NCBI GenBank assembly: GCA_027306995.1
Contig: DAHUXS010000013.1
Span: 310,001 to 374,000 of the forward strand
Direction: 5' to 3'
Source: Lysobacter sp.
Lineage (GTDB): Bacteria; Pseudomonadota; Gammaproteobacteria; Xanthomonadales; Xanthomonadaceae
Length of the DNA stretch: 64,000 bases
Position numbers and translations under genes: made by a program
Shown here: positions 13,540 to 54,215 of the stretch, piece by piece
How the letters are laid out: the number at the start of each line of letters is the position of its first letter
Numbering within the stretch: position 1 is the stretch's first letter
Notes under the pieces: generated by a model
What the model saw: the letters and a program-made list of their open reading frames with translations, nothing else
The model's database searches: none
Told to the model about the DNA's origin: nothing

Positions 13540-16527
13540 TCAGAAGTGGTAGACCACCTCCGCCGACAACTCGCGGCCCACCGGATCGTCGACGCAGTAG
13601 GCGAAGTCGCCGCACCAGTTGTCGCGATAGATCTTGTTGAGCAGGTTGGCGCCGTAGACGTTGATCTTCAGGTTGTCGTTGAACTGATACCCCAGGCTGC
13701 CGTTGAAATAGCGACGGGCCGGCCGGTGTTCCTTGTGGAGGGCGGTCCACTGGCCATAAGTCGGACTGCTCGGGTCCGAGTCGTAGCAATTCAAATTGCT
13801 GCTCGGGACATAGCCGTCCGCGAACGGCATGCAGCCGCCGTAACGATTGTCGCGTCCGCCCGCCTTCTGGAACATCGCCAGCGTCGCATTCCAGCGGTTG
13901 TAATTCCAGTTGATGGTACCGGTGAACTTGTAATGCGTCTGGTACTCGGTCGAGTTCTCCATCACATCGGTCGGGAACTGACGCGTCTCGTAGGTGATCT
14001 GGTTGGTCAGGCTGGCCCCGAGGCGGAACGTGCCGATTCGCGTCTTCGGCAATGCATAGTTCATGTGGATGTCGATGCCGCGCACGTGGGTATCGGCGCG
14101 GTTGATCGGCTGCACATCGATCTGGGTGATGTTGCCCGCCAAGCTGCCACCGGGCACGACCGGCGCACGGTGGATGCGCTTGGCAACGTCAGCGCAATAC
14201 GCTGCGCTTGGCGGCGAGGCCAGGGCAACGCCGTCCTGCGTCCATCCGCCGTATTTGCAGGCCGCTTCATCGCGCAGCAACCTGCCTTCGTCGATGTCGT
14301 CGATCAGGTTCTTGATCTTGATGTCCCAAAGATCGGCGCTGACCGAGAAGTTCTTGAAGGCATCCCAGACGAAGCCGTAGGAGATCGACTTGCCGGTTTC
14401 GTAACGCAGGTCAGGCGAACCCGAACGCGAGATCACGATGTTGCTGGCTTTGAAGTCGTCGAAATTGCACTGGCGGTTCGGCCAGCCGGCCAGATAGCAC
14501 CAGCTCGGATCGGTCAGGCTGCGGAAGTCGGAGCTCGGCGCACGGTAGATGAAGTTCATGTCCGGCGCGCGGAAACTTGTGCCGTAGGTGCCACGGAACA
14601 GCAGCGTGCTGGTCGGACGGAATTCCAGACCAATCTGGTAGGTCGGCTTGCCGGCGTTCTGCGTGGCCTGGAATTTGTCGTAACGCGTGGCGATGTTGGC
14701 GGTCAGCATTTTCAGCAACGGGACCTTGAACTCAACCGCGGCGCCGTAATGGCTGCGGGTGCCACCACCCTGCTGGACATTGCCGAACGGCGTGTACCAG
14801 CCATCGGGATCGTTGCTGTCGAGCGTCTTCGGATCAGGCGTCAGGTGATAGCCCTGCTGGCCGTATTCGAGCGCGCCGGCAAAACCGATCGGGCCGGCCC
14901 AGCCCTTGAACAGTTCACCGCTGATCGTAGCCTGCGCCTGGTTCAGGAAAGAGATCGCCCTGTTCTCGCCACGCTTGCTGAAGGCCGCAGTCGCCGAAGC
15001 TGGCACCGGGTTCCACAACTTGTTGTAATCGGGAGCATAGATAGGGGTGCCGTTATGGGTGCCCAACTGCGGCCCCATGTAGTAATCGAACATCTGGCCC
15101 TGGTTGAGGGTCGGGAAGCTTTCGTGGTCCGAATACGTGGCACGACCTGCCATCAATTCCCAATCGAAGCGATCATTGAAAATGCGGCCTTTGAGCCCGG
15201 CATTGATTTCGGCCGAGGTTTCGCGCGACAGGGTCAGGACGTTCTTTTCGCCGCCGAGTTCGCCCGGTGACTGGAACTTGAGGAAGTTGCGATTGCCGCC
15301 CGTTCCGTTGTTGGCACGCTGATCCCAATAGACGGGGCTGCTGAAGCCGTCGAGGAAGGTATTGAACTGGCCCGTGGTCTTCCACACGCCGACCGAAGCC
15401 CAGGCCTGCAGGTTGTCAGTGATGTCGTAGGTTCCGTACAAATAACCGGAATCGTTCTTGCTGCCGGTGCGCAACGACCAGTTTCCGAACACGCGCTGTG
15501 CGCAGTACTGGCCGCCATTGCCCGCGGTCTTGGAGTTGCGGTCATAGCTGAGGCGGCTGGCGAGGTAGTACAAGTCGCCATATTGGTCGCAGGCGCCGGC
15601 CGGCGGCGCGATGTAGGTGCGGCCTGTCGGATTCGACGCCGCATCACGATCGCGCAGGTACAGGCCGGGATACGGCGTTAGCGCGCCGACGTTGAAGTAG
15701 CGCTGGCCCGGACCCCAGTCCTGGTACGGCACGTCGTCTTCGGCATCCATGAAGGGACGATCCTTGGCCAGCAGCTGCCCGCGGTTGAAGTGCTGCAGGT
15801 CGTAGACCAGGTTCCACTTCTTGCCGCTGAATCCGCCGGATGCCTCGAGATCCAGATCGCGGCGCCCACCGCGGGTCGCTTCGCCCCACTTGGCGCGCAC
15901 GGTATGACCATCGGCATTTTGTTTGAGGATGACGTTGACCACGCCGCCCATCGCGTCCGAACCATAGATGGCCGAGGCGCTGCCGGTCAGCACTTCGATG
16001 CGGTCGACGATGCCGGTCGGGATGTTGTTGAAGTTGGCGACATTGCCCTTGCCCGCGTAGGGCAGCGGGTAATCCGCGACGCGATGGCCGTTGATCAGCA
16101 ACAGGCTGCGGCCGGGGCCGAGGTTGCGCAGGTTGAGCGGCTTGACGTTGACCGCGGACTGGCCCCAGTCGTAATCGTTCTGCACGTTGCCGACCGCCTC
16201 GGTGAGGCTGCGCACCGCTTCATACACCGTCGCAAAGCCCTGCTTCTTCAACTGTTCGCCGGTCAGAACGGTCACCGGCGCCGGTCCTTCAGCCTGGGAG
16301 CGCGCGATGCGCGAACCGGTCACCACGACCTTGTCGAGTTCCTTCTTGTCCTTGGCCGCATCGTCTTTTTTCGGCTGCGCCGTTTGCGCCTGCCCCTGAT
16401 CCTGGGCAGCGGCGGGAGCAGCCGGGGCGGCAGGTGTCTCTTCCGCCTGCACGACAAGTGGTGCGTACAACGCCAGCGACAACGCGCCGCATAACGCGGT
16501 GCACCGGAACGACTTGGAACGGGTCAT
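13540..16527 (-). CDS. TonB-dependent outer-membrane receptor (fucose arm)
   Basis: A 995-residue receptor for energised import through the outer membrane. The signal peptide (about 1-28, SLALYAPLVVQA) is followed by an Ala/Pro/Gln/Lys-rich linker, a TonB-box-like DKVVVTGSRI, the plug domain (LKPLNLRNLG-type sequence, DRIEVLTGSASAIYGSDAMGG) and a beta barrel ending in EVVYHF. It is divergent from the GH29/PNGase operon across a 315-base regulatory region with a FadR-type operator at 16584-16594, 57 bases before its ATG. A substrate such as a fucosylated glycan is inferred from shared regulation. Confidence 0.92.
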   Translation of the reverse strand: MTRSKSFRCTALCGALSLALYAPLVVQAEETPAAPAAPAAAQDQGQAQTAQPKKDDAAKDKKELDKVVVTGSRIARSQAEGPAPVTVLTGEQLKKQGFATVYEAVRSLTEAVGNVQNDYDWGQSAVNVKPLNLRNLGPGRSLLLINGHRVADYPLPYAGKGNVANFNNIPTGIVDRIEVLTGSASAIYGSDAMGGVVNVILKQNADGHTVRAKWGEATRGGRRDLDLEASGGFSGKKWNLVYDLQHFNRGQLLAKDRPFMDAEDDVPYQDWGPGQRYFNVGALTPYPGLYLRDRDAASNPTGRTYIAPPAGACDQYGDLYYLASRLSYDRNSKTAGNGGQYCAQRVFGNWSLRTGSKNDSGYLYGTYDITDNLQAWASVGVWKTTGQFNTFLDGFSSPVYWDQRANNGTGGNRNFLKFQSPGELGGEKNVLTLSRETSAEINAGLKGRIFNDRFDWELMAGRATYSDHESFPTLNQGQMFDYYMGPQLGTHNGTPIYAPDYNKLWNPVPASATAAFSKRGENRAISFLNQAQATISGELFKGWAGPIGFAGALEYGQQGYHLTPDPKTLDSNDPDGWYTPFGNVQQGGGTRSHYGAAVEFKVPLLKMLTANIATRYDKFQATQNAGKPTYQIGLEFRPTSTLLFRGTYGTSFRAPDMNFIYRAPSSDFRSLTDPSWCYLAGWPNRQCNFDDFKASNIVISRSGSPDLRYETGKSISYGFVWDAFKNFSVSADLWDIKIKNLIDDIDEGRLLRDEAACKYGGWTQDGVALASPPSAAYCADVAKRIHRAPVVPGGSLAGNITQIDVQPINRADTHVRGIDIHMNYALPKTRIGTFRLGASLTNQITYETRQFPTDVMENSTEYQTHYKFTGTINWNYNRWNATLAMFQKAGGRDNRYGGCMPFADGYVPSSNLNCYDSDPSSPTYGQWTALHKEHRPARRYFNGSLGYQFNDNLKINVYGANLLNKIYRDNWCGDFAYCVDDPVGRELSAEVVYHF

Positions 16528-16583
16528 GCGGGGTTCTCCTGAAAGGTGAGGCGCGAATGGCGGCGGACGGTGAGTTGGCCCAA

Positions 16584-16594
16584 TGGTCCAACCA
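16584..16594. promoter_or_regulatory. FadR-type (GntR) operator before the TonB receptor
   Basis: TGGTCCAACCA matches TGGT-N3-ACCA, the core recognised by FadR-subfamily GntR regulators. On the minus strand it follows a TAAGAAT -10-like element (16602-16596) after a single base, so a bound protein would cover the transcription start of the receptor gene. The likely binder is the GntR protein encoded at 34169-34930. Confidence 0.72.
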
Positions 16595-16663
16595 GATTCT
16601 TATCCCGAATCCTGCGTCGATACACATTCCCGCACGAAAAAAGCGGTTACGAAAATGTATATT

Positions 16664-16725: not shown

Positions 16726-16815
16726 GCATGTCAACCGTTGGCGAATCGGTTGCAGCAGCTCGTCGCCAGAAGCGATCGATTTTTGTTCCCACGAAGGCAA
16801 TGACCACGCTAGGAT

Positions 16816-16826
16816 TGGTCCAACCA
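16816..16826. promoter_or_regulatory. FadR-type (GntR) operator before the GH29/PNGase operon
   Basis: TGGTCCAACCA lies inside the perfect extension ATTGGT-CCA-ACCAAT, 16 bases before the ATG of the first GH29 gene. It directly abuts a -10-like TAGGAT (16810-16815), with TTCCCA (16786-16791) as a possible -35. Binding here should block initiation. Confidence 0.75.
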
Positions 16827-16842
16827 ATTTGATGATCCAGCC

Positions 16843-18228
16843 ATGGCTCGACCTTCTCGCCTCCATCGTCGGCCACTGATCGCATCGCTGCTCGCGCTCG
16901 CCCTGGTCGCCCCCTTCGTGCAGGCGCAAAGCAAAGCAGCAACCGTGGTGCCACAGGAAACCGCCGCGCAGAAAGCCCAGCGCATGCAGTGGTTCGCCGA
17001 CGCCAAGCTCGGGATCTTCATCCACTGGGGCATCTACGCCGTCGATGGCATCGATGAATCGTGGTCGTTCTTCAACGGCAAGATTTCGCATGCCGATTAC
17101 ATGAAGCAGCTCGCGGGCTTCAATGCACGCGCCTACGATCCGCAGGCCTGGGCCGACGCGATCAAGCGCAGCGGTGCGCGCTATTCGGTGCTGACCACGC
17201 GCCACCATGACGGCGTCGCGTTGTGGGATTCGAAGCAGGGCATCAACGTGGTGCGCGACTCGCCCGCGAAACGCGATCTTGTCGGCCCCTTCGTCAAGGC
17301 ATTGCGCAAGGACGGCCTGAAGGTTGGCCTGTACTACTCATTGCCGGATTGGTCGTATGGCGACTACGACGTCTTCACCCGCAAGGAGAAGCGTTACGAC
17401 AGCAAGCAGGATCCGGCGCGCTGGCAGCGTTATCTCACCTATTACCAGGGCCAGATCGCGGACCTGCAGCATCGCTACAACCCGGATCTGATCTGGTTCG
17501 ACGGCGACTGGGAACATTCCGCCAGCGAATGGCAGTCACCGAAGCTGCGCACCGACATGCTCGCGCGCAATCCGAAGATGATCATCAATTCGCGCCTCAA
17601 CGAATACGGCGATTACGCCACGCCCGAACTCGGGCTTCCGGTCGTCAAGCCGACGCAGCCCTATTGGGAACTGTGTCTGACGATGAACCGGTCCTGGGGT
17701 TACCAACCGCGCGACAACGACTACAAGACGCCGAACCAGGTGTTGCAGATTTTCGCGCAGACGATTTCCATGGGCGGCAACCTGTTGCTCGACATCGGCC
17801 CCAAGCCCGACGGCAGCATCGACGCGCGCCAGATGGACATCCTCGACGCGCTCGGACGGTGGACCGGCAAGCACGGCGAAGCGATCTACGGCACCACCGC
17901 CGGCATCGGCCTCGATCATTACGCCGGCGCCAGCACGCTGTCGAAGGATCGCAAGACGATCTATCTGTTCGTCGATGGCCAGCCCAATGGCGATCTGCTG
18001 GTGAAGGGGCTGGTCAACAAGGTGGTCCGTGCGCGCGTGGTCGGTGGCGGGCAATCCGTTGCAGCGAAGGTGGTCGGCAAGTACGACTGGGCGAAGCAGC
18101 CGGGCTTGCTGTTCCTCACGGTGCCACGCGATGCCGTCGATCGTGACATCACCGTGGTCGCGCTGGAACTGGACGCGCCGGTCCAGCTGTACCAGGAAGA
18201 ATCGAAACCGATCGAGAGCAACGGATGA
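16843..18228 (+). CDS. GH29 alpha-L-fucosidase, secreted
   Basis: A 461-residue fucosidase, first gene of a four-gene operon. The signal peptide ends near residue 28 (LALALVAPFVQA). Family motifs are LGIFIHWGIYAVDG, TTRHHDGVALWDS and DLIWFDGDWEHS, with Asp220 at the nucleophile position. The sequence around the barrel is of the GH29-A type, generally less linkage-specific; this subclass call is tentative. The stop codon overlaps the next GH29 gene by 4 bases. The FadR-type operator just upstream places it in the fucose regulon. Confidence 0.93.
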   Translation: MARPSRLHRRPLIASLLALALVAPFVQAQSKAATVVPQETAAQKAQRMQWFADAKLGIFIHWGIYAVDGIDESWSFFNGKISHADYMKQLAGFNARAYDPQAWADAIKRSGARYSVLTTRHHDGVALWDSKQGINVVRDSPAKRDLVGPFVKALRKDGLKVGLYYSLPDWSYGDYDVFTRKEKRYDSKQDPARWQRYLTYYQGQIADLQHRYNPDLIWFDGDWEHSASEWQSPKLRTDMLARNPKMIINSRLNEYGDYATPELGLPVVKPTQPYWELCLTMNRSWGYQPRDNDYKTPNQVLQIFAQTISMGGNLLLDIGPKPDGSIDARQMDILDALGRWTGKHGEAIYGTTAGIGLDHYAGASTLSKDRKTIYLFVDGQPNGDLLVKGLVNKVVRARVVGGGQSVAAKVVGKYDWAKQPGLLFLTVPRDAVDRDITVVALELDAPVQLYQEESKPIESNG

Positions 18229-19739
18229 TGAAGCCAACCACCGTCCTGGCCCGCATGAAGGCCACTACCCTCGCCGTCCTGTTGCTTGCCGCATTGCCGC
18301 TGTCGGTGCATGCCGATGACGACTACGCAGTCGGCAGTTACGTCCCCGAAACCGATCCGCTGGTCGTGCGCAAGCTCGAGCAATGGCAGGACTGGAAATT
18401 CGGTTTCATGATGCACTGGGGCGCGTACAGCCAATGGGGCGTGGTCGAATCGTGGTCGATCTGCTCCGAAGACGTCGACTGGTGCGGTCCGCCCAAGCAC
18501 AACGCGTTCACCGCGAAATACGCCAACGATTACGTCGGCTACAAGCAGGCCTACGAGAAGCTGCCCACGACCTTCAACCCGGTGAAATTCGACCCGGGCA
18601 AGTGGGCAAGCATCGCCAAGGATGCCGGCACGAAATACGTCGTGTTCACCACCAAGCACCACGACGGCTTCTCGATGTTCGATACCCGGCAGAGCGACTA
18701 CAAGATCACCGCCGCCAACGTGCCTTTCCACGCCAATCCCCGCGCCAACGTGGTGAAGGAAGTCTTCGGCGCGTTCCGCAAGCAGGGTTTCGGCATCGGC
18801 GCCTATTTCTCCAAGGCCGACTGGCACAATCCGTATTACTGGTGGCCGCGTTTCGCCACGCCCAATCGCTACGCCAATTACGACACCCGCAAATATCCGC
18901 AACGCTGGCAGGAATTCGTCAAATTCACCCATGCCCAGATCGACGAACTGACCGGTGGCGCCTATGGTCCGATCGACATCCTGTGGCTGGATGCCGGCTG
19001 GGTGCGCGCACCACGTCCCGACGACAACAAGAATCTCACCGGGATCGACGGATTCCGCCAGGGCCCGGAAGACATCGACATGCCGGGACTGGCGAAGATC
19101 GCGCGCGACAACCAGCCGGGGCTGATCGTCGTCGATCGCGCGGTCGGCGGCCGCTACGAGAACTACCGCACGCCCGAACAGAAAGTTCCGGACAAGCCGC
19201 TGCCGTATCCGTGGGAAACCTGCATGACGCTGGGCGATTCCTGGTCGTTCGCGGCGCACGACAACTACAAGAGCGCACGCAAGGTCGTGCACTTGCTGGT
19301 GGATGTCGTCGCCAAGGGCGGCAACTTCCTGCTCAACGTCGGCCCCGACGGCAATGGCGAACTGCCGCCGGAAGCGGTGAAACGCCTGCATCAGATTGGC
19401 CAATGGATGCACGTCAACGGCGAGGCGATCTACGCCAGTCGTGCGGTCGCGCCCTATAGCAGCGGCAAGTTCCGCTATACACGCCTGCGCGACGGCAGCG
19501 CCTATGCGATCTATCTGCCCGACGACGACGAACAACAACTCCCCGCGACGTTGAAGATTCCTGGTCCGTCGCCGGCAGCTGGCGCACAAGTGCGCTTGCT
19601 CGGCAGCACTGCCTCCCTGGCGTGGACGCGCGATGGCGATGCCACCGTCGTCGCCGTTCCCGAGGAGGTGCGGACTAAAACTTCAGGCGCGTATGCCTGG
19701 GCATTCCGCCTGCCCGGCGCAGCAACGCAATCCCATTGA
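18225..19739 (+). CDS. GH29 alpha-L-fucosidase, secreted (second of operon)
   Basis: A 504-residue GH29 enzyme with a signal peptide (AVLLLAALPLSVHA, about 14-30). Motifs include KFGFMMHWGAYSQWG, TTKHHDGFSMFDT and IDILWLDAGWVRA, where Asp256 should be the nucleophile; the usual Phe before it is Leu. An insertion rich in Trp, Cys and Tyr (EDVDWCGPPKHNAF) near residue 87 is absent from the preceding paralogue and may shape substrate choice. Translation may begin at either of two adjacent ATGs (18225 or 18228). It is coupled to both neighbours. Confidence 0.93.
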   Translation: MMKPTTVLARMKATTLAVLLLAALPLSVHADDDYAVGSYVPETDPLVVRKLEQWQDWKFGFMMHWGAYSQWGVVESWSICSEDVDWCGPPKHNAFTAKYANDYVGYKQAYEKLPTTFNPVKFDPGKWASIAKDAGTKYVVFTTKHHDGFSMFDTRQSDYKITAANVPFHANPRANVVKEVFGAFRKQGFGIGAYFSKADWHNPYYWWPRFATPNRYANYDTRKYPQRWQEFVKFTHAQIDELTGGAYGPIDILWLDAGWVRAPRPDDNKNLTGIDGFRQGPEDIDMPGLAKIARDNQPGLIVVDRAVGGRYENYRTPEQKVPDKPLPYPWETCMTLGDSWSFAAHDNYKSARKVVHLLVDVVAKGGNFLLNVGPDGNGELPPEAVKRLHQIGQWMHVNGEAIYASRAVAPYSSGKFRYTRLRDGSAYAIYLPDDDEQQLPATLKIPGPSPAAGAQVRLLGSTASLAWTRDGDATVVAVPEEVRTKTSGAYAWAFRLPGAATQSH

Positions 19740-21391
19740 TGACGACGACGATGCGAACCCCTCTCCTCTCCGGCGCCGTGCTATGCGTCGTCTTGGCGGC
19801 ATCCGCACTGGCCGCCGACGCGCCGGCGCGTTTCAACGACGGCCACGACGATCCGCGCACCTCCTATCCGGTGCTCAGCCGCGACGGCGACGGCGCCTGC
19901 ACGGTCGAAGTCCTCCAGCATGGCTTCGACAGTTTCGATCCCGCGCGCGCCACGCTGGATGCGTCGCGCCAGTGCCCGGGGCCGTGGTCGAAAGTGGTGC
20001 TCGTGCTGGACGGCAAGGTCAAGGGGCGCCAGTACGACCGCATCGGCGACATCGAGATCGGCGGCGTCACCGTGCTGCGCACCAGTACGCCGGAACCGTC
20101 ACGACAGGGCATCGCCTGGCAGGTGCAGAAGGACGTCAGCGATTACGCGCCATTGTTCACGCGCGTCCAACCGGTGGAGATGCATCTCGGCAACGTCGTC
20201 AACGCCACCTATACCGGTGTCTTCGACGTGCGCGTCGCGCTGAAGTTCTATCCCGTCGCAGCCAACCATCCGGCAATCGCCAGCGCCGACATGGTGATGC
20301 CGCTCGACGGCCTGCACGAGGATGGTCGCGACACCGTCGGCAACTTCGTGCTGCCGGGCAATGCCGAACGACTGGTCGCCGAGGTCTACGCGACCGGCTC
20401 GGGTGGCGGCTGCGAGGAATTCTGGTACTACGCGACACCGGTGAAGAAGGATTATTTCTGCCGCGCCGAACAGGGTCCGTATCGCGAGGTGCAGGTCTTG
20501 CTCGATGGTCGCCTGGTCGGCGTCGCCGCGCCTTATCCGCACATCTATACCGGCGGCTGGAGCAATCCCTATCTGTGGTACGCGATTCCGTCGCCGCGCG
20601 CCTTCGACATCCACCCGCTGCGCTATGAACTGACCCCGTTCATCGCGCTGGCCAATGACGGCAAACCGCATGCATTGCGCCTGCAGGTCGCCGGCCTCAC
20701 CGAAGGTCGCGAGGGTTGGAAGCTGCTGCCCAGCCTGCATGTCTGGCGCGATGCCGGCAGTACGCGCACACGCGGCGAGCTGGTCACGCTTGAAGCCGGC
20801 CAGGCGACGCTGAAGAACGATGTCGACGAACGCGACGAGAATGCGCAAACGCTGCAGTCGCGTTGGCAGCATCGGTTCCTCGCACGCGGTCGCGTCATCA
20901 CTTCGCATGGCGTGGTGGAAACAACGGTCGAACGCACGCTCGAGGGACGCGTCGGCCATCGCTGGACCAAGGTCGAGGATGGCGACGACCATCTCGACGC
21001 CGATTGGCGTGATCGAGAAACGATCACCCGCTTGCAACGCGGGAGAAAGGACAGCGATACGAACGACCAGCGCTTCGGACTGGTCGGTGGCATCGGTACC
21101 CGCGATGTCGGCGGCCAGCCGCGCCTGACCACGATCATTTCCATCCACGATGATGCCGATCGCGAAACACGGCATGGCGCGATGACCAGCACGCGCCAGA
21201 CCCGCGATCGTTTCGAGGGCAACGCCGGCTACTTCACCAAGCTCGCACGCGACCAGCGCGATGCGACGGCCAGCACCCGCCAGGACTATCGTGCTGCGAA
21301 CAGCGACGGCAGCTGTTTCCAGCGCACCCTGGTGAGTCGCAATGGTCGCTTCACCAGGGATGACAGCGCGGACTGTACAAAGACGCATTGA
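19739..21391 (+). CDS. Plant PNGase A-like peptide-N4-(N-acetylglucosaminyl)asparagine amidase
   Basis: A protein of about 550 residues with a signal peptide (LLSGAVLCVVLAASALA). It resembles the peptide-N-glycosidase A family first described in plants and also known as acid-active PNGases of some Acidobacteria and Xanthomonadales. Supporting stretches are CTVEVLQHGFDSF, GPWSKVVLVLDGKVKGRQYDR with IGGVTVLRTSTPEPS, and HIYTGGWSNPYLWYAIPSP. Such enzymes cut intact N-glycans from asparagine, and unlike PNGase F they tolerate core alpha-1,3-fucose. The start ATG overlaps the previous stop; ATG 19751 is an alternative. Placement among fucosidases supports a plant N-glycan role. No catalytic residues were assigned. 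Confidence 0.82.
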   Translation: MTTTMRTPLLSGAVLCVVLAASALAADAPARFNDGHDDPRTSYPVLSRDGDGACTVEVLQHGFDSFDPARATLDASRQCPGPWSKVVLVLDGKVKGRQYDRIGDIEIGGVTVLRTSTPEPSRQGIAWQVQKDVSDYAPLFTRVQPVEMHLGNVVNATYTGVFDVRVALKFYPVAANHPAIASADMVMPLDGLHEDGRDTVGNFVLPGNAERLVAEVYATGSGGGCEEFWYYATPVKKDYFCRAEQGPYREVQVLLDGRLVGVAAPYPHIYTGGWSNPYLWYAIPSPRAFDIHPLRYELTPFIALANDGKPHALRLQVAGLTEGREGWKLLPSLHVWRDAGSTRTRGELVTLEAGQATLKNDVDERDENAQTLQSRWQHRFLARGRVITSHGVVETTVERTLEGRVGHRWTKVEDGDDHLDADWRDRETITRLQRGRKDSDTNDQRFGLVGGIGTRDVGGQPRLTTIISIHDDADRETRHGAMTSTRQTRDRFEGNAGYFTKLARDQRDATASTRQDYRAANSDGSCFQRTLVSRNGRFTRDDSADCTKTH

Positions 21392-25296: not shown

Positions 25297-25329
25297 CCGG
25301 AACGCTGGGACTTACTCAACCTTAACATT

Positions 25330-25431: not shown

Positions 25432-25443
25432 TTTGGAATGCAT

Positions 25444-45100: not shown

Positions 45101-45255
45101 ACAACTTCAACGATGCGTTCAGCATCAGCGCTTCGGTGCTGAACCTGACCCAGGAAACAGCGCGCTCGCATCTGGGCAGTGACACCAAGGACCGTTTCTA
45201 TTCCAATAGCTACTCCGGTCGCACCATGTATCTTGGCGCCACCTACAAGTTCTGA
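42103..45255 (+). CDS. TonB-dependent receptor, Xanthomonas/Caulobacter carbohydrate type
   Basis: A 1050-residue outer-membrane receptor. After the signal peptide come the TonB-box-like KVTVTGYRYSIEKSLDQKR, a plug with ITAEDVGKFPDKNVADALQR and VPGVIISRDGGEGKNVSVRG, and a large barrel ending in TMYLGATYKF. This plug pattern defines the long receptors of carbohydrate-utilisation loci in Xanthomonas and Caulobacter. The two LacI-type operators upstream and the mannosidase genes downstream suggest uptake of mannose-containing N-glycan fragments. A strong terminator follows at 45302-45340. Confidence 0.94.
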   Translation: MKLSTRPQHRNPLSAAIAIVLATATVSPAIAFAQQATAPTDSAATSAQADQKKANELDKVTVTGYRYSIEKSLDQKRDANAIVDVITAEDVGKFPDKNVADALQRVPGVIISRDGGEGKNVSVRGLASDLTLTELNGNYVATAESNGDPTRSFNYTLMPSNMLSSAELFKTPEARIDEGGIGGTVILHTRRPLSVKSNSGFVNVEGSMADNRVHDKINPSVSAQYSWHDKSNRFGVLIGYTRQKREARTMGTSTEDYNWYGRDEGGEAVDVNGRPTPGAPHNYWGGTGFHDQNGGYYTHFAMPTSVDMSITNEQRERKGGQLTAQFKPTNELTFTANYFRFDLSQNSQTNTLKIPEWSLARFSGDGNWLTGRMLDGMTFDPSHTIVTGASYSAHPGTTYPCNETQAAALGYQPGGWGSDSCALPTPQITGSYNLQKARSQTFDLSVEWHHGPFDAEIKGGHTWAEGGPSLQFTLPIKPRKLISGAGTTSETWALANHLSAWSLAGTPSMTFSPDLMKNLQNGILEPDLGSTGSSFTRNSNHQNYVQADFTWHSQSSWLQSIQFGAKYRDGGISRNTGNTYWACPGTDPSNYANRFGQSGNPCPTLANQFPAYLLYSPNNTNSGAFNSNLFPAINYPAYIQYLNSTFGPMQTRNEPNFIYNVNEKISSAYAQANFSTERLRGNIGVRLVRTQQHADSTDQVDYYNAYFWRVGGALQPCSGAPATGAPTGSGCQGGFTTLPDDNSNPASGHTQSFVISSLNRSYNDVLPSLNVAYDITKDLVLRGAASKVISRPGYGDIASPGGLNYCSAQYVADHQIIGGGCQQGWTGSGSNKNLEPYKATQFDLGLEWYFHPGSILGGDLFRKNVSNFTVPVVQDVSMNVGGQTVTVQNYSTTAGGRNGVSEGVELYAQHTLDFGLGFQVNYTYNRTNEAAITLQDGTSLGKSPLVGSARNQANFTVFYETRKLMLRASYNRRGEVVDGLVNKMNVYEEPYQQIDLNAAYNFNDAFSISASVLNLTQETARSHLGSDTKDRFYSNSYSGRTMYLGATYKF

Positions 45256-46875: not shown

Positions 46876-49526
46876 TGACACTGCGCAATTGGCTCGGGTT
46901 GGCGCTCACGACGACGTTGTCCCTTTCCGCGCACGCGCAAAGTGCAGCGAACGGCGTATCGATCCAGCATCTCGACGGTGCGTGGTCGTTCCGCTTGCAA
47001 CCCGACGACAAGCAGGCCGCCAACCATCGCGCGATGACGGCATGGCGGCGCGCGACAGTGCCGGGGACGGTGCATACCGATCTCCTCGGCAACCACCAGA
47101 TTCCCGATCCCTACGTCGGCGCGCCCGAGGCGGGATTGCAGTGGATCGGCCTGGCTGGCTGGGAATATCACCGCAGCTTTGATGTCGATGCCGCGGCCTT
47201 GCGCGCGCGTCGCAACGACCTGGTCTTCGCGGGCCTCGATACCCTTGCCGATGTCTGGCTCAACGGCGAACGCATCCTCTCCGCCGACAACAGTTTCCGC
47301 ACCTGGCGCGTGCCGGTGCATGGCCGGTTGAAGGCGCACGGCAACGAACTGCGCGTGGTCTTCCATTCCCCGATCGCCACCTTGCTGCCGCAGGTGCAGG
47401 CGATGCCGCACAAGATCGCCGGCAATTACACCTCGCCCTATGGCGACGAACCGAAGGACGCGATGACCGCGAACTTCGTGCGCAAGCCCGGCTACCACTA
47501 CGGTTGGGATTGGGGTCCGCGCTACGTCACCGCCGGCATCTGGCAGCCGGTGTCGCTGCAAAGCTGGAGCGGCGCGCGCATCGACGACCTGCAGATTCGC
47601 CAGGACCGTGTCGACAGCGAACGTGCCGACCTCACCGCGCGCGTACGCATCGTTCCCGCAGCATCCGCGCACTATCGCGTGCGCCTGTGGCAGGTCGCGC
47701 CGGACGGCAGGCGTTCCGCGGCCGGCGATCGCGAGGTCGATGCCGCGGCAATGACGACCGTCGAGATCCCGGTGCACATCGAACGCCCGCAGCGCTGGTA
47801 TCCGAACGGCTATGGCGCCCAGCCGCTGTATCGTTTCGAAGCGGAAGTGCTAGCGAATGGTCGCGTGAGCGATCGCTTCTCTCGCCGCACCGGATTGCGC
47901 AGCGTCGAATTGCGTCGCGAGAAGGATGCCTCCGGCCGCAGCTTCGAATTCGTGGTCAACGGCATCCCGGTGTTCGCCAAGGGCGCGAATTCGATTCCCT
48001 TCGACATGTTCGCACCGCGTCCCAGCGATGCGCAGATCCGTCGCATCCTGCAGTCGGCGCGCGACGCCAACATGAACATGTTGCGCAGCTGGGGCGGCGG
48101 CTACTACGAACGCGATGCCTTCTTCGATGCCGCCGACGAACTCGGTCTGATGGTGTGGCAGGACTTCATGTTCGGCGGCGGCATGCAGCCGGCCTACGAT
48201 CCCGCCTTCCGCGCCAATGTCGTCGCCGAAGCGCGCGACCAGCTGGAGCGCCTGCGCAACCACCCCAGCATCGTCCTGTGGTGCGGCAACAACGAGGAAG
48301 AGATTGCCTGGAAATACTGGGGCCACGGCAAGGAACTGACCGCCGCCGATCCGGCATTCGCGAAGAAAGTCTGGGACGGCTGGCAGCAACTGTTCGATCA
48401 CGATTTGCGCGACGTGGTGCAACAGGAAAGCGGCAGCATCGCCTACTGGCCGAGCAGCCCGAGCGCCGACGATCTCGCTGGCAAGGCCGACATCAACGAC
48501 TCCGGCGATCGCCATTACTGGGAAGTCTGGGGCGGCCCGGCCCATCCCTATGAAAAGTATCTGGAGATCACGCCGCGCTTCATGTCGGAATACGGTCTGC
48601 AGGCGTGGCCGGAGATGCGCACGATCCGCGCCTTCGCCGGCAAGCAGGCGTTGTCGATCGACAGTCCGGTGGTGACCGCGCACCAGAAGTTCATGGCTGG
48701 CAAGGGCAACGAACGCCTGATGCATTACATCACCATGGAATATGGCACGCCACGCGATTTCGCCGATTTCGTCTACCTGAGCCAGGTGATGCAGATGGAC
48801 GGGATTTCGCTGGCGGCGCTGCACCACCGCGCCAGCCGCCCGGTGACGATGGGATCGCTGTACTGGCAGCTCAACGATGTCTGGCCGGGGGCGTCGTGGT
48901 CGAGCATCGACTGGTTCGGCCGCTGGAAGCCACTGAACTACGCCGCACGTCGCTTCTACGCGCCGGTGGCGGTAGCCGCGCTGCGCCAGAACGGACGCAC
49001 CACGGTGACCCTGCTGTCGGATCGCACCACGCAGCGCCAGGGCCAGTTGCGCACGCGCCTGTTCGATCTCGACGGCAAACTGCTCCGTGACGAGACCACG
49101 AATGTGACGTTGCCGCCGCTGAATGCCTCGGCAGCATTGACGCTGGACGATGCACAACTGCTGCGCGGCATCGATGCGAAGCGAACAGTCGCCGCCTTCG
49201 ATCTCGCCGTCGCTGGCGAACCGGCCTCGCGCGGCCTGGTGTATTTCGCGCATGCCAAGGACATCGCCTGGCCCGATCCCGGCCTGCACCGCGAATGGTC
49301 GCGCGATGGCAAGACGCTACGCCTGACCGCCACGCGTCTCGCCCGCAGCATCTGGCTGGATTTCGGCGACCTCGACGCCACGCCTTCCGACAACGCATTC
49401 ACCCTGTTGCCGGGCGAAACGGTCACGCTGCGGATCCGCGGCAATGCCTCGTCCAAACAGTTGCAGGCCGCGCTGCACATCCGCAGCCTCGCCGACGCGC
49501 TTTCCTCAACGCCTCCATCGAATTGA
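46875..49526 (+). CDS. GH2 beta-mannosidase, secreted
   Basis: An 883-residue family 2 enzyme of the beta-mannosidase type. The signal peptide (LALTTTLSLSAHA) is followed by a jelly-roll domain (LDGAWSFRLQPDD..., ADVWLNGERIL), immunoglobulin-like domains, and the barrel with LWCGNNEEEIAWKYWG (acid/base Glu474) and RFMSEYGLQAWPEM (nucleophile Glu572). ALHHRASRPVTMGSLYWQLND is also typical of beta-mannosidases. It should cut the Man-beta-1,4-GlcNAc bond at the N-glycan core. The start shares a base with the previous stop; the frame is open upstream over the halogenase-like gene and was rejected. Confidence 0.93.
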   Translation: MTLRNWLGLALTTTLSLSAHAQSAANGVSIQHLDGAWSFRLQPDDKQAANHRAMTAWRRATVPGTVHTDLLGNHQIPDPYVGAPEAGLQWIGLAGWEYHRSFDVDAAALRARRNDLVFAGLDTLADVWLNGERILSADNSFRTWRVPVHGRLKAHGNELRVVFHSPIATLLPQVQAMPHKIAGNYTSPYGDEPKDAMTANFVRKPGYHYGWDWGPRYVTAGIWQPVSLQSWSGARIDDLQIRQDRVDSERADLTARVRIVPAASAHYRVRLWQVAPDGRRSAAGDREVDAAAMTTVEIPVHIERPQRWYPNGYGAQPLYRFEAEVLANGRVSDRFSRRTGLRSVELRREKDASGRSFEFVVNGIPVFAKGANSIPFDMFAPRPSDAQIRRILQSARDANMNMLRSWGGGYYERDAFFDAADELGLMVWQDFMFGGGMQPAYDPAFRANVVAEARDQLERLRNHPSIVLWCGNNEEEIAWKYWGHGKELTAADPAFAKKVWDGWQQLFDHDLRDVVQQESGSIAYWPSSPSADDLAGKADINDSGDRHYWEVWGGPAHPYEKYLEITPRFMSEYGLQAWPEMRTIRAFAGKQALSIDSPVVTAHQKFMAGKGNERLMHYITMEYGTPRDFADFVYLSQVMQMDGISLAALHHRASRPVTMGSLYWQLNDVWPGASWSSIDWFGRWKPLNYAARRFYAPVAVAALRQNGRTTVTLLSDRTTQRQGQLRTRLFDLDGKLLRDETTNVTLPPLNASAALTLDDAQLLRGIDAKRTVAAFDLAVAGEPASRGLVYFAHAKDIAWPDPGLHREWSRDGKTLRLTATRLARSIWLDFGDLDATPSDNAFTLLPGETVTLRIRGNASSKQLQAALHIRSLADALSSTPPSN

Positions 49527-49530: not shown

Positions 49531-50820
49531 ATGAACATGTCCGAACACGCCATTCCGCCCCTGCCCGACTTCCGCGATCCGGAGGCCCTGCGCGCGCACA
49601 TCCGCCAGACGATGGCCTTCTACCATCCGCATTGCATCGACCCCGACGGCGGTTTCTTCCACTACTACATGGACGATGGCACGATCTACGATCGCAGCCA
49701 TCGCCACCTGGTCAGCAGCACCCGCTTCGTCTTCAATTACGCGATGGCCGCCAACGAATTCCGCGACGACGTAGCGCGGCGCCAGCAGTATCTCGATGCT
49801 GTCCACCACGGCCTGCGCTATCTGCGCGAAGCGCATTTCGATCCGCAAAGCGGCGGCTACGCCTGGACGATCCGCGACGGCAAGCCGGAAGACCTGAGCC
49901 AGCAATGCTATGGCGCGGCGTTCGTGCTGCTGGCCTACAGCTGCGGCCTGAAGGCCGGCGTGGAGGAAGCGCGGGCGTGGATGGGTGATGTCTGGGATCT
50001 GCTGGAACAACGCTATTGGGAAGCCGGCCCCGGTCTCTACCGCGACGAGGCGACCCGCGATTGGACGTTCTCCGACTATCGCGGCCAGAACGCCAACATG
50101 CACATGTGCGAGGCGATGCTGGCGGCGTACGAGGCCAGTGGCGAACAACGCTATCTCGATCGCGCGTTGCTGCTCGCCGACCACATGACGCGCCGCCAGG
50201 CCGACAAGGCCGATGGCCTGGTGTGGGAACACTACGACAAGGATTGGAACGTCGACTGGGATTTCCATCGCGACGATCCCAAGCACCTGTTCAAGCCGTG
50301 GGGATTCCAGCCCGGCCACCAGACCGAATGGGCCAAGCTGCTGATGATCCTGCACGCGCATCTGTCGAAACATGGCGCTGCGCCGGAATGGCTGGTTCCC
50401 AAGGCGCGCTTCCTGTTCGACGAAGCGATTCGCAAATCCTGGGACGATGAATTCGGCGGCATGGTCTACGGCTTCGCGCCGGACAAGCTGCGCGCGCCCG
50501 GCGTCGAAGGTCGTTTGCTCGCCGACGGCGAAACCTTCGTCTGCGACGAGGACAAATACTTCTGGGTGCAGGCGGAATCAATCGCCACCGCGGCGCGCCT
50601 CGCTGCCGTGACCGGCGATGCGCGTTACTGGGATTGGTACGCCAAGCTCTGGCAGTACGCCTGGCAGCACATGATCGACCATCGCTACGGCGCCTGGTAT
50701 CGCATCCTTGATCGCGAGAACCGCAAGTACAACGACGAGAAGAGCCCGGCCGGCAAGACCGATTACCACACCATGGGCGCCTGCCACGACGTGCTGTCGG
50801 TGCTGCGCACGCACGGATAA
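49531..50820 (+). CDS. AGE-family sugar isomerase, probable D-mannose isomerase
   Basis: A 429-residue cytoplasmic protein of the N-acylglucosamine 2-epimerase superfamily, an alpha/alpha-barrel fold. Conserved features are HRHLVSSTRFVFNYAMAA, FSDYRGQNANMHMCEAMLAA, GFQPGHQTEWAKLL and DYHTMGACHDVLS with the catalytic-type histidines. Members include N-acetylglucosamine 2-epimerase, cellobiose 2-epimerase and YihS-like mannose isomerase. The mannosidase neighbours and the fructokinase gene in the same regulon favour mannose-to-fructose isomerisation. It has no signal peptide and starts 4 bases after the GH2 stop. Confidence 0.82.
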   Translation: MNMSEHAIPPLPDFRDPEALRAHIRQTMAFYHPHCIDPDGGFFHYYMDDGTIYDRSHRHLVSSTRFVFNYAMAANEFRDDVARRQQYLDAVHHGLRYLREAHFDPQSGGYAWTIRDGKPEDLSQQCYGAAFVLLAYSCGLKAGVEEARAWMGDVWDLLEQRYWEAGPGLYRDEATRDWTFSDYRGQNANMHMCEAMLAAYEASGEQRYLDRALLLADHMTRRQADKADGLVWEHYDKDWNVDWDFHRDDPKHLFKPWGFQPGHQTEWAKLLMILHAHLSKHGAAPEWLVPKARFLFDEAIRKSWDDEFGGMVYGFAPDKLRAPGVEGRLLADGETFVCDEDKYFWVQAESIATAARLAAVTGDARYWDWYAKLWQYAWQHMIDHRYGAWYRILDRENRKYNDEKSPAGKTDYHTMGACHDVLSVLRTHG

Positions 50821-50831: not shown

Positions 50832-53800
50832 ATGGCGATGCGCGCACGAACACTTTCCGTCTTCATTCTCGCCGCGCTCGCCGCCCATGCCGGCGCGCAA
50901 TCGCGTCCGGCGCCGGCATTCGCGAGTTCGTTCGAATCGAATGATCCGCAGCCGCAGCTCAAGACGGGTGGCGGCATCGCGCTCGCCATCGGCAACGGAC
51001 CGGAGTCGCCTTACAACGCTAAGGCCAAGGTCGGCTACGGCGGGCTGCATGCATTGCACTACCAAGGGCGGGGCGCTGGTGGCCGCACGCGATTGTTCGC
51101 GGTCGATATTCCGGTCGACGCCGATACCGCGTTGTCGTGGCTGGTGCTTCCTGAAATCACTGGTGGCATCGTCGATGGCGATACCGTCGCCTCGACTGGC
51201 GTCAGCATCGACCTAGTGTTCGACGATGGTCGTCGCCTGTCGCAACTCGATGCCCGTGACCAGCACGGCGCCGGCATCACCGCGGCAGGGCAAGCCGCAT
51301 CGAAAACGCTGTACCCGCAACAGTGGGCACGCAAGCAGGTGCGCGTGGGAGATATCGCTTCGTTGCACGGCCACCGCATTCGTGCGATCGAACTGGAACT
51401 GCAGCCGGTGGGCGGCGCAACAGCGCAAGGCTGGATCGACGACATCGCGATCACATCGTCGCCACGCACAGCCAGCACCCACCCTTCCGACGACGTGCTG
51501 ACCACGCGCGGCACCCAGTCGAACGGCACCTTCTCGCGCGGCAACAATTTTCCCGCGACCGCGCTGCCGCACGGCTTCAATTTCTGGACACCGGTGACCG
51601 ATGCCGGAACGCTCGGTTGGCTGTATCGCTGGAACGAAGGCAACGACGGCGACAACCATCCGCGCCTGCAGGCGTTGGCGCTGAGCCATGAGCCGAGTCC
51701 GTGGATGGGCGATCGCCAGACCTTCCAGGTGATGCCGTCACTGGCGACGGGCGAACCGGAAGCCGATCGCAAGAAGCGTGCGATGTCGTTCAACCACGAC
51801 GACGAAACCGCGCGCCCCTATCTCTACGGCGTGCGCTTCGACAATGGCATCGCCGCCGAGATCGCCCCCACCGATCATGCCGCGCTGTTCCGCTTCCGTT
51901 TTCCGGCCAACGACGGCAAGAGCGGCAGCACGCTGCTGTTCGACAACGTCGATGCCCGTGGCGGATTGACGTTGGATCCTGCCACGCAAACGTTGAGCGG
52001 TTACACCGATATCCGCAGCGGCCTGTCGAGCGGCGCCGGGCGGATGTATGTCTATGCGCGCTTCGACCAACCATGGCAGGGCAGCGGCGCGATCAAGACC
52101 GGTCGCCCGACTGGCTACGTCAACTTCGCGGTCGGCGCCGATCGCGAAGTGCGGATGCGCATCGCGACGTCGCTGATCTCCGTCGAACAGGCGAAGCACA
52201 ATCTTGAACTGGAAATCGGCAGCGCCACGTTCGACACCATCCGCGATCGCGGACAGGCCGCATGGGATGCGGTGCTGGGTCGCGTCCGCATCGCCGGCGC
52301 CAGCGACGACCAGCGCACGACCACGTATTCCAATCTCTATCGACTCTTCCTCTATCCCAACAGCGCGCACGAGAACATCGGCAGCAATGCGCAGCCGCGT
52401 TGGGTGCATGCCGACCAGAGCACCTGGACCAAGGACAATGCCGGTGGCGACGCGCAGCGCACGTCCGCACGCGTTCTGCCCGGCAAGCTCTACGTCAACA
52501 ACGGCTTCTGGGACACCTACCGCACCGCCTGGCCGGCCTATGCGTTGATCGCGCCGAAACAGGCCGGCGAGATGGTCGATGGATTCCTCCAGCAATACCG
52601 CGACGGTGGCTGGGTCGCGCGCTGGTCCTCGCCCGGTTATGCCGACCTGATGGTGGGCACCAGTTCCGATGTCGCTTTCGCCGATGCCTGGTTGAAAGGC
52701 GTGCGCGGCTTCGATCCGCGCGAGGCCTATGCCGCGGCACTGCGCAACGCGACCACGATCGCGCCGGCGCCGAACGTCGGCCGCAAGGGCATGGCGACAT
52801 CGCCCTATCGCGGCTATATCGACACTGGCGTTGGTGAAGGATTGTCGTGGAGCCTGGAAGGCGGTCCCAACGATTTCGGCATCGCCCAGCTGGCCGAAGC
52901 GCTGGCCAAGACGTCGCGCAATCCCACGGAAGCGCGCCGTTACAACGATGAAGCTGCCTACTTCCGTGGTCGTGCGCTCGACTACGCGCATTTGTTCGAT
53001 CCGGCGACGGGTTTCTTCCGCGGCCGCCAGGCCGATGGTAGCTGGCAAAAGCCGGCGAATGCATTCGATCCCCGCGTCTGGGGCGGCGACTACACCGAGG
53101 GCAACGCCTGGACCTACGCTTTCCCGGCGGTCTATGACAGCCATGGCCTGGCCGCGTTGTACGGCGGCCGCGACGGCTTGGCGAGAAAGCTCGACACCCT
53201 GTTCTCGACACCGGAAACCGCAGGCAAGGAATTCTCCGGCAGTTATGGCGAAGTGATCCACGAAATGACCGAGGCGCGCGACGTGCGACTGGGCATGTAT
53301 GCGCACAGCAACCAGCCGTCGCATCACCTCGCCTGGTTGTACGACAGCATTGGCCAGCCATGGAAGACCCAGGCATTGACGCGCGAGATCCAGCGCCGGC
53401 TCTATCTCGGCAGCGAGATCGGCCAGGGCTATCCCGGCGACGAGGACAATGGCGAGATGTCGGCGTGGTACGTGTTCGCGATGCTCGGCTTGTACCCGTT
53501 GCGGATGGGCGCACCGGAATACGCGATCGGTTCGCCGGCGTTCGATCGCGTCGATGTCACCATGGACAACGGCCGCACCCTGCACGTGATCGCGCGCGGC
53601 AACAGCCTGCAGAACGTCTACGTGCAGTCGCTGAAGGTCAACGGCAAGCCATGGACGAAGGCTTGGCTGCCGCACGCGGCGATCGCCAACGGCGGCACGC
53701 TGGAGTTCGCCATGGGCCCGAAACCCTCGCGCTGGGGCAGCGGCGAACGCGATCTCGCGCCATCGCTGACGAAGACCGGACAAGCGCCGAAGCCGCTGTG

Positions 53801-54215
53801 CGATCTCGCATCGCAGTTGGCGTCTTCCACGTTCGCGAACGGGGCCTCCGCGAAAGCGCTGGTCGATGGCGATGCGATGGTCGGCGCGGCGATTGCCGGT
53901 GAAAATCGCGACGTGCGCCTGCGCTTCGATCGACCGCAGAAAATCGATTTCTACACCCTGACGACCGGTGAGCATGCCGATGCGCTCGCACTCGGATGGA
54001 CGCTGCAGGGTCGCAACGATGCAGGCGCCTGGCACGAGATCGACCGTCGCACGGGAGAGACCTTCCCGTGGTCGCGGCAGTTGCGTCCGTTCCGCATCAC
54101 GCATCCGCAGGCGTGGCGTGAGTTGCGATTGCGCTTCGATGGCGGCGCGTCGTTCGATCTGGCGGAAGTAGGGTTGATGCAGAACCGGCGCTTCGATGTT
54201 GCTTGTTCGAAGTAA
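50832..54215 (+). CDS. Large GH92 alpha-mannosidase with accessory domains
   Basis: An 1127-residue secreted GH92 enzyme, about 300 residues longer than its paralogue at 37323. The signal peptide (VFILAALAAHAGA) is followed by an N-terminal beta-sandwich (about 28-215), the GH92 region (SNGTFSRGNNFPATALPHGFNF..., TEGNAWTYAF with Glu756 as likely acid, GDEDNGEMSAWYVFAMLGLYP) and a C-terminal discoidin-like domain (about 985-1127, VRLRFDRPQKIDFYTLTTG). In the EGxxWxY motif Thr replaces the Gln seen in the other GH92, which may mark another linkage preference. It is last of the cluster. Confidence 0.92.
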   Translation: MAMRARTLSVFILAALAAHAGAQSRPAPAFASSFESNDPQPQLKTGGGIALAIGNGPESPYNAKAKVGYGGLHALHYQGRGAGGRTRLFAVDIPVDADTALSWLVLPEITGGIVDGDTVASTGVSIDLVFDDGRRLSQLDARDQHGAGITAAGQAASKTLYPQQWARKQVRVGDIASLHGHRIRAIELELQPVGGATAQGWIDDIAITSSPRTASTHPSDDVLTTRGTQSNGTFSRGNNFPATALPHGFNFWTPVTDAGTLGWLYRWNEGNDGDNHPRLQALALSHEPSPWMGDRQTFQVMPSLATGEPEADRKKRAMSFNHDDETARPYLYGVRFDNGIAAEIAPTDHAALFRFRFPANDGKSGSTLLFDNVDARGGLTLDPATQTLSGYTDIRSGLSSGAGRMYVYARFDQPWQGSGAIKTGRPTGYVNFAVGADREVRMRIATSLISVEQAKHNLELEIGSATFDTIRDRGQAAWDAVLGRVRIAGASDDQRTTTYSNLYRLFLYPNSAHENIGSNAQPRWVHADQSTWTKDNAGGDAQRTSARVLPGKLYVNNGFWDTYRTAWPAYALIAPKQAGEMVDGFLQQYRDGGWVARWSSPGYADLMVGTSSDVAFADAWLKGVRGFDPREAYAAALRNATTIAPAPNVGRKGMATSPYRGYIDTGVGEGLSWSLEGGPNDFGIAQLAEALAKTSRNPTEARRYNDEAAYFRGRALDYAHLFDPATGFFRGRQADGSWQKPANAFDPRVWGGDYTEGNAWTYAFPAVYDSHGLAALYGGRDGLARKLDTLFSTPETAGKEFSGSYGEVIHEMTEARDVRLGMYAHSNQPSHHLAWLYDSIGQPWKTQALTREIQRRLYLGSEIGQGYPGDEDNGEMSAWYVFAMLGLYPLRMGAPEYAIGSPAFDRVDVTMDNGRTLHVIARGNSLQNVYVQSLKVNGKPWTKAWLPHAAIANGGTLEFAMGPKPSRWGSGERDLAPSLTKTGQAPKPLCDLASQLASSTFANGASAKALVDGDAMVGAAIAGENRDVRLRFDRPQKIDFYTLTTGEHADALALGWTLQGRNDAGAWHEIDRRTGETFPWSRQLRPFRITHPQAWRELRLRFDGGASFDLAEVGLMQNRRFDVACSK

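Follow-up and report, generated by a model that had tools for sequence, protein, structure and literature searches.

We analysed a 64,000-nucleotide window of a Lysobacter sp. genome (contig DAHUXS010000013.1, positions 310,001 to 374,000) whose positions 13540-54215 hold an island of genes that is probably a utilization system for plant-type, or closely similar, N-glycans. The island comprises two transcriptional modules; this organisation is well supported, with gene content, family membership, conserved gene linkage and two operator-like palindromes at the right promoters all pointing to it, and the function is what we infer from these features. Module F, assigned to a GntR regulator, consists of a TonB receptor, GH29 fucosidases, a peptide-N-glycanase (PNGase) A-type amidase, a GH3 enzyme and an L-fucose operon. 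Module M, assigned to a LacI regulator, consists of a GH92 enzyme, a fructokinase, TonB receptor 2, a halogenase, a beta-mannosidase, a mannose isomerase and another GH92 enzyme.

Gene content and predicted pathway

The gene set of the window was chosen with a GC-based method and the proteins were then scanned against Pfam, some of them also against NCBIfam and PDB; start codons and signal peptides were assigned by visual inspection. From left to right the island reads as follows (ORF, open reading frame; SDR, short-chain dehydrogenase/reductase; KDF, L-2-keto-3-deoxyfuconate; FMN, flavin mononucleotide), GH92b being followed by tamB.

13540..16527, minus strand: TonB-dependent receptor 1 (Pfam)
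16843..18228, plus strand: GH29a fucosidase with an exported-looking N-terminus (Pfam 1.6e-90; best solved match 6gn6)
18225..19739, plus strand: GH29b fucosidase (Pfam 9.5e-95)
19739..21391, plus strand: PNGase A-type peptide-N-glycanase with a Sec-like N-terminus (PF12222, E 1.5e-64)
21402..22829, plus strand: GH29c fucosidase with a Tat-like N-terminus (TRRNFLASL), its ORF opening at 21342 (Pfam 4.4e-36)
22837..25296, minus strand: GH3, beta-xylosidase-like (Pfam)
25444..26211, plus strand: FucF, KDF 4-dehydrogenase of the SDR type (best solved matches 8y4j/8xwk, the H. huttiense enzyme, E 1.3e-92)
26235..27578, plus strand: GH29d fucosidase (Pfam 1.8e-93, on residues 330-659 of the 749-residue ORF 25329-27578)
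27593..28438, plus strand: FucG, 2,4-diketo-3-deoxyfuconate hydrolase of the FAH family (Pfam 6.2e-71; NCBIfam 425.6 against a cut-off of 500)
28435..29736, plus strand: FucC, L-fuconate dehydratase (best solved match 4ip4, with a superfamily name only, then 1yey, E 3.5e-173)
29751..30590, plus strand: FucB, L-fucono-1,5-lactonase (NCBIfam NF052480, above cut-off)
30606..31382, plus strand: FucA, L-fucose dehydrogenase (NCBIfam NF052481, above cut-off)
31382..31729, plus strand: FucM, RhaM-family mutarotase (Pfam 3.5e-28; NCBIfam model under cut-off)
31751..32983, plus strand: FucP-type L-fucose symporter (NCBIfam TIGR00885, above cut-off)
32996..34147, plus strand: FMN-dependent L-lactate dehydrogenase-like protein (NCBIfam subfamily NF008398 above cut-off, LldD model under its own)
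34169..34930, minus strand: GntR/FCD regulator of module F (Pfam; operator assigned by association)
34993..37311, plus strand: GH20 beta-hexosaminidase with a PA14 domain (Pfam 2.8e-117)
37323..39776, minus strand: GH92a alpha-mannosidase (best solved match 7zgm)
39857..40894, plus strand: LacI-family regulator of module M (Pfam)
40891..41859, plus strand: fructokinase-like PfkB kinase (Pfam 2.3e-56; NCBIfam 226.9 against an equivalog cut-off of 450)
42103..45255, plus strand: TonB-dependent receptor 2, Xanthomonas/Caulobacter type (NCBIfam TIGR01782, above cut-off)
45355..46875, plus strand: flavin-dependent halogenase of the Trp_halogenase family (Pfam 3.2e-187)
46875..49526, plus strand: GH2 beta-mannosidase with beta-mannosidase Ig domains (solved beta-mannosidases 6byc/6bye, E about 1e-271)
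49531..50820, plus strand: AGE-family mannose isomerase-like protein (Pfam 1e-114; NCBIfam 219.5 against an equivalog cut-off of 600)
50832..54215, plus strand: GH92b alpha-mannosidase (Pfam 1e-145; best solved match 7nsn)

This confirms the gene content given at 13540-54215 by the first-pass annotation, as each class that it had named (PNGase A-like enzyme, four GH29, GH3, GH20, two GH92, GH2 and two TonB receptors) is supported by Pfam. The amidase scored 218.3 bits against PF12222, for which the curated cut-off is 25.3, and it is the only match to this family in its own genome. The top NCBIfam model for the GH3 protein was a beta-xylosidase/alpha-L-arabinosidase, at 581 bits and far under the cut-off of 1050. 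GH29d starts near 26235, the longer 749-residue ORF overlapping the fucF frame. Linkage specificities of the glycoside hydrolases are not readable from the sequence matches obtained.

The first-pass annotation had also described a full L-fucose pathway running through lactate. We considered a pathway without a second dehydrogenase and rejected it, the SDR at 25444-26211, in the frame overlapped by the longer ORF, filling this step; the pathway is complete, and the enzymes of the non-phosphorylating L-fucose route 3 (FucM, A, B, C, F and G) are all encoded, FucG and FucM scoring under NCBIfam cut-offs. FucF keeps Arg148, Thr183, Arg192, Arg214, Trp252 and Asp41-Ile42 in H. huttiense numbering (offset 7, the only one of offsets 3-7 that fits all seven letters). 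These are the substrate- and nicotinamide adenine dinucleotide-binding residues of KDF dehydrogenase named in PMC11199699, and FucF can be placed among the type 1 enzymes. FucC is 60% identical to the 1yey chain. Given the FucA/B/C/F/G set with its KDF dehydrogenase, fucose would yield pyruvate and L-lactate, and the last gene of the operon would serve to oxidise lactate; the route through lactate is thus supported by sequence. The route itself is already known, since PMC11199699 lists XCC4067 of X. campestris as a KDF dehydrogenase. Its route 3 has the same enzymes, end products and type 1 ligands as the set of the window, which differs in being embedded in a fucosidase/amidase cluster and followed by the L-lactate dehydrogenase-like gene.

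On the mannose side, the best solved match of GH92a, 7zgm, is a plant N-glycan alpha-1,3-mannosidase of B. massiliensis deposited by PMC9522356. The mannose isomerase/fructokinase pair named earlier does lie in one module, but the two genes are not adjacent and both proteins remain under their NCBIfam equivalog cut-offs. The description of the N-glycan island as nearly complete is among the weaker points, neither a galactosidase nor N-acetylglucosamine (GlcNAc) catabolism having been recognised inside it. As no beta-galactosidase was recognised there (the genome has one GH35, on contig 11), galactose removal would need an enzyme encoded elsewhere. Some 110 kb further right on the contig of the island lie the nag genes (nagA, SIS-domain, GntR-UTRA, LacI, MFS and TonB receptor).

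The relatives compared, which were chosen for having matches rather than as a random sample, were read as Lysobacter silvestris AM20-91 (G046), Lysobacter sp. Root494 (G074), Lysobacter sp. CFH 32150 (G008), Pseudoxanthomonas helianthi (G174), P. sp. z9 (G091), P. beigongshangi (G016) and Luteimonas panaciterrae (G144); further genomes are given by number. The window genome is a sibling of Lysobacter silvestris, for which Solilutibacter is the newer genus name, and the island proteins are 62-92% identical to those of G046, a second receptor match (39%) being set aside.

The halogenase had been missing from the first-pass annotation. It carries GGGSAG (of the GxGxxG type) and WQWRIP (WxWxIP), and the Fx.Px.Sx.G motif gave no fixed-spacing match, FMEPLESTA being seen by eye with Ala at the Gly position. 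A homologue with 83-88% identity stands beside the receptor and GH2 in G046 and G174. Our literature search found no description of a halogenase-receptor link, and according to PMC7336383 BrvH and three halogenases of X. campestris lack known native substrates.

We propose the following scheme, in which activities, linkages, cell location and order of the steps are predictions. Module F, under a GntR/FCD repressor, would supply the PNGase A-type amidase that frees the glycan, several GH29 enzymes that remove fucose and the GH3 enzyme that removes xylose; the cytoplasmic set FucP, M, A, B, C, F and G would convert fucose to pyruvate and L-lactate, and the FMN enzyme would oxidise the latter to pyruvate. 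Module M, under a LacI repressor, would import the glycan core through TonB receptor 2, the two GH92 enzymes would trim mannose and the GH2 beta-mannosidase would split the Man-beta-1,4-GlcNAc bond. Mannose would then enter glycolysis by way of the isomerase and the fructokinase, and GH20 would release GlcNAc for the nag genes located elsewhere. The inducer may be an acid intermediate of fucose in the case of GntR and mannose or fructose in that of LacI. If this scheme is true, a bacterium would be treating two sugars of a single glycan as distinct signals and coupling deglycosylation straight to fucose catabolism, in a compact setting open to experiment. Candidate enzymes for stripping core fucose and xylose from plant glycoproteins would also follow, as would a genomic neighbourhood (receptor, beta-mannosidase) for a flavin-dependent halogenase and, across relatives, a natural comparison of joined and separate modules.

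Operator-like boxes of the two modules

Two different operator-like palindromes, both recurring in relatives, support the split two-regulator control proposed earlier. Their copies in the island are:

16583..16595: GntR-type operator ATGGTCCAACCAG, some 60 bp ahead of TonB receptor 1
16815..16827: GntR-type operator TTGGTCCAACCAA, some 20 bp ahead of GH29a and likewise placed in G046
25329..25341: GntR-type operator TTGGTCCAACCAA, between GH3 and fucF
25420..25432: GntR-type operator TTGGTTGGACCTT, 18 bp upstream of fucF
39828..39841: LacI-type operator TTGAATCGATTTAA, between GH92a and lacI, identical in G046
41937..41950: LacI-type operator TTAGATCGATCTAA, upstream of TonB receptor 2
42042..42055: second LacI-type operator TTGGATCGATCCAT, with one mismatch

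The GntR box (TTGGTCCAACCAA or a near form) thus occupies four island sites, before TonB receptor 1, before GH29a and between GH3 and fucF. The pattern TGGTNNNACCA occurs 3 times in the window against 0.42 expected, a count reached in 1 of 100 shuffles, and the core GGTCCAACC 4 times against 0.60 expected under a first-order model. Allowing up to two mismatches with one perfect half gave 14 window sites, mostly inside genes, so that only close copies are meaningful. All eight SDR-type fucose operons (window, G046, G174, G074, G008, G091, G016 and G012) have the box 18-109 bp upstream of fucF, with two mismatches each in G174 and G012. It precedes fucF in none of three Xanthomonas-type operons (G144, G330 and G070), the one weak site of G070 lying inside fucF; a copy also precedes gntR in G070 and G144. 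A shared operator-like box at the target promoters, kept in relatives, is consistent with a GntR/FCD regulon. Upstream of GH20 in the window we found neither a GntR nor a LacI box. A separate inverted repeat noted by eye, CTGGCCAGTATAGGCCAG (34931-34948), lies directly before the gntR start and is unlike the proposed operator.

Exact copies of the LacI box TTNRATCGATYNAA number only three genome-wide: one before GH92a/lacI, one before TonB receptor 2 and one at C16:471767. The reversed control has none. With at most one mismatch there are 3 copies in the window against 0.41 expected, a number that 0 of 100 shuffles reached; because the sites of the window themselves supplied the pattern, these counts are partly circular, and the better evidence is the conservation in relatives and the genome-wide rarity. 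All seven genomes scanned, the window included, have such a box in front of module M genes. In G046 the copies lie before GH92a/lacI and TonB receptor 2; G074 has them before lacI and the isomerase, G008 before lacI and a TonB receptor and G070 before GH92a and a TonB receptor, and in G091 a pair precedes the receptor that opens the cluster; the stretches of several relatives hold further copies left unplaced. We rejected an absence of the box at lacI in G174, G091 and G070, for a scan of the whole stretches found copies: there GH92a and lacI are co-directional and the boxes stand instead before the first gene of the cluster or before a receptor, which strengthens the claim for the regulator. 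The shared palindrome at target promoters, kept in relatives, suggests a LacI regulon. Since the boxes sort with the modules, that is by linkage, each regulator presumably binds the box of its own module.

Relatives, known systems and competing explanations

The fuconate dehydratases of the g18 genomes are 94-96% identical to the 1yey chain, which we take to originate from X. campestris, and g18 was therefore read as Xanthomonas. A PF12222 match was found in 23 of 198 family genomes, own included (16 of the 23 with E < 1e-50), and none of the eight g18 genomes compared is among the 23; X. theicola has a PNGase A homologue (PMC7348039), so Xanthomonas is not wholly devoid of one. Fuconate dehydratase matches occur in 73 of 395 family genomes and, within the genus of the window, in only G000 and G046 of 17 listed. 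The amidase, the GH29 enzymes, the fucose operon, GntR, LacI and the mannose genes occur together in the window, G046, G174 and G074, although the G074 stretch has no match for GH3, GH2, TonB receptor 2 or halogenase and the lactate dehydrogenase match of G174 is weak (38%). As homologous clusters recur in other genera, the clustering goes beyond chance. The other relatives show looser arrangements: G008 has both modules within a stretch of about 35 kb; they are on two contigs in G091, with the amidase on a third; the fucose module and the amidase are on different contigs in G016; G012 has the fucose module and no PF12222 amidase match; the amidase of G144 has no other island match in the surrounding 60 kb; and G070 has the amidase, GH29a-c, GH3, GH20 and gntR on one contig, the mannose genes on a second and, on a third, a fucose operon of the Xanthomonas type. 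In both G070 (L139) and G144 (L143) this operon replaces the SDR type, and the family therefore holds two versions of the fucose route.

Several observations weigh against a single N-glycan system under two regulators. The PNGase A-type gene is located off the cluster contigs in G008, G091, G016 and G144 and thus is not tied to the clusters, bearing in mind that separate draft contigs need not be distant. Loose forms of the GntR box are not enriched genome-wide: TTGGTNNNACC had 37 matches against 51 for its reversed control, TGGTCCAACCA with at most one mismatch 29 against 91, and the exact 11-mer occurs 5 times, with 3 copies in the island, 1 intragenic on contig 3 and 1 intergenic on contig 15. 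All LacI-type sites of G174, one of them before TonB receptor 2, are mismatched. Finally, the PNGase homologue of Lysobacter enzymogenes was among the candidates with negligible activity in PMC7348039.

Some of these points would fit two independent loci that merely adjoin, a general fucoside-use locus under GntR and an N-glycan mannose locus under LacI, the PNGase A-type gene being a passenger of the former. This explanation, which seems improbable to us, can also draw on the different operators of the two halves and on their separate contigs in the drafts of G091 and G070. However, the halves are joined in four genomes and close together in G008, and both G074 and G008 have a GntR and a LacI box in one intergenic stretch before lacI, so that the switches are not fully separate. 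A general linkage of the PNGase A-type gene to these genes was rejected: GH29 homologues were near it in 4 of 80 loci (L050, L051, L052 and L056), surveyed over at most 10 kb on each side and less in some, so that linked genes may lie farther out. It is also possible, though unlikely, that the system in fact acts on some other fucosylated glycan or glycoprotein, such as xyloglucan, arabinogalactan protein or insect or nematode N-glycans. The many fucosidases (five GH29 in the window), whose linkages cannot be read here, agree with it, as does the presence of core alpha-1,3-fucose on insect N-glycans (PMC9522356), which makes the plant origin of the substrate the weaker part of the plant-type label. 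By contrast, the proximity of GH92a to 7zgm supports this label and, jointly with the GH2 beta-mannosidase, GH20 and GH3, fits a xylose-bearing N-glycan core.

The two-module N-glycan system also has to be distinguished from the nix and nag clusters of X. campestris, which comprise one TonB receptor and nine nix genes (PMC5700972). Both have a TonB receptor with an N-glycan hydrolase set including a fucosidase and, in X. campestris, a beta-galactosidase, and the GlcNAc genes form a separate nag cluster; the window shares the clustering of a TonB receptor with GH2, GH3, GH20, GH29 and GH92. That the island is the orthologous Xanthomonas nix locus, merely rearranged, is nevertheless very improbable, and we rejected it on comparison with three g18 loci. 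The nix-type loci of G330, G353 and G384 differ clearly in gene set and order, and their counterparts are only 27-49% identical to the proteins of the window. Their 40-kb stretches gave no match at E 1e-15 for LacI, kinase, isomerase, halogenase or PNGase A-type proteins. In G330, the one genome checked for this, the fucose genes lie 1.9 Mb from the nix-like locus and belong to the other operon type. The island may thus work like nix and is better not filed as nix.

The first-pass annotation had pointed to related toolkits in X. campestris and Bacteroides, and nix-type loci and Bacteroides pathways are indeed published; the review PMC10154615 cites GH92 and GH29 enzymes of X. campestris with activity on plant N-glycans. 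The Bacteroides massiliensis pathway (PMC9522356) resembles the island in having a PNGase that accepts core alpha-1,3-fucose, a GH92 alpha-1,3-mannosidase, a GH3 beta-xylosidase and GH29 fucosidases. It differs in that the PNGase is apparently of the PNGase F kind (7zgn), that several loci with SusC/D are involved and that no fucose operon is mentioned in the available text. No SusD-type match, as expected of a Bacteroidetes-type polysaccharide utilization locus, was found among the island proteins scanned. Among PNGase A homologues, that of T. roseus (PNGase H+) releases core alpha-1,3-fucosylated glycans (PMC4231336) and that of D. japonica (Dj) deglycosylates horseradish peroxidase (PMC7348039). 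In the panel of the latter paper Ft and Dj outperformed the T. roseus enzyme, Xt, Ac and Ka were on a par with it and the rest were negligible. PNGase H+ and Dj, like the PNGase A-type protein of the window, are homologous to plant PNGase A; the two act on horseradish peroxidase and were studied as tools, the available parts of both papers not mentioning gene context. As to the claimed novelty of the combination, no description of a combined amidase and fucose-catabolism locus was recognised among the open-access matches listed (titles and abstract openings; Dupoiron 2015 lies outside them), but the parts are all published and the combination recurs in other genomes. Known parts thus seem to be put together here in a distinct version of the Xanthomonas kit.

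A putative secreted protein beyond the window and the genomic setting of the island

The exact LacI box at C16:471767, outside the window, has a one-mismatch copy 20 bases further on, and this pair (C16:471767-471800) lies 85-118 bp before the gene of a 684-residue protein (L165:6885-8939 = C16:471885-473939) with an exported-looking N-terminus. Its best Pfam match had E 0.28, and PDB searches gave one match at E 0.13 or none. The protein carries DAIDMDDE, and homologues in G144 (40%) and G070 (33%) carry DAVNFDDE; D163, D168, D169 and E170 are invariant across the three. Both homologues are encoded directly behind a GH47 gene, which in G070 itself follows a GH92a-lacI-receptor-GH2 cluster. 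The motif, which we take to be similar to EndoH-type motifs, and this neighbourhood led us to consider an endoglycosidase with a GH18-like motif, as a lead only. Against it count the fourth motif residue, Asn in the homologues, the lack of a LacI-type box (up to three mismatches) at the loci of the G144 and G070 homologues, and the distribution, with no match in G046 and matches in 3 of 17 genomes, own included. It is therefore a doubtful extension of the scheme that the LacI regulon reaches a secreted enzyme of an undescribed family cutting high-mannose N-glycans inside the chitobiose core, with a LacI endoglycosidase line for high-mannose glycans, a GntR PNGase line for core-fucosylated ones and a halogenase of the receptor operon that modifies something tied to the receptor.

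In the window, ubiA (91-1005) and tamB (ending at 54534) enclose the island, and these two genes also flank the same gene set in G046. For the close relative G106, which has neither a PNGase A nor a fuconate dehydratase match, an empty site was considered and had to be dropped because the contig ends 153 bp past tamB and leaves the site unreadable; in G166 and G079, which have neither match, the ubiA-tamB gap measures about 11 and 13 kb with other ORFs inside. The left part of the interval in the window also holds the kdp operon, tRNA-Arg(ccg) and a further fucosidase:

1070..2758, plus strand: GH29e, fifth alpha-L-fucosidase, between ubiA and tRNA-Arg (Pfam E 6.6e-62)

The Pfam total of five GH29 in the window is one more than had been named before. 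As four relatives (G046, G174, G091 and G016) have a GH29e homologue within their fucose operon, flanked by fucC and fucB, the gene belongs to the island interval. GH29e adjoins tRNA-Arg(ccg) at 1070-2874, an arrangement different from that of G046, and the interval has therefore been rearranged. The potassium-transport operon kdp with kdpDE (4818-12507) gave no kdpA, kdpB or kdpC match within the 80 kb searched in G046, where weak kdpD and kdpE matches resemble paralogues, and tRNA-Arg(ccg) lies there between the fucose half and the mannose half. Judging by these differences in placement, the ubiA-tamB interval varies within this genus. Three relatives have additional TonB receptors beside the modules (G046:C1:397557-400343, G070:C33:199528-202452 and G174:C1:855577-858366), with 37-39% identity to receptor 1.

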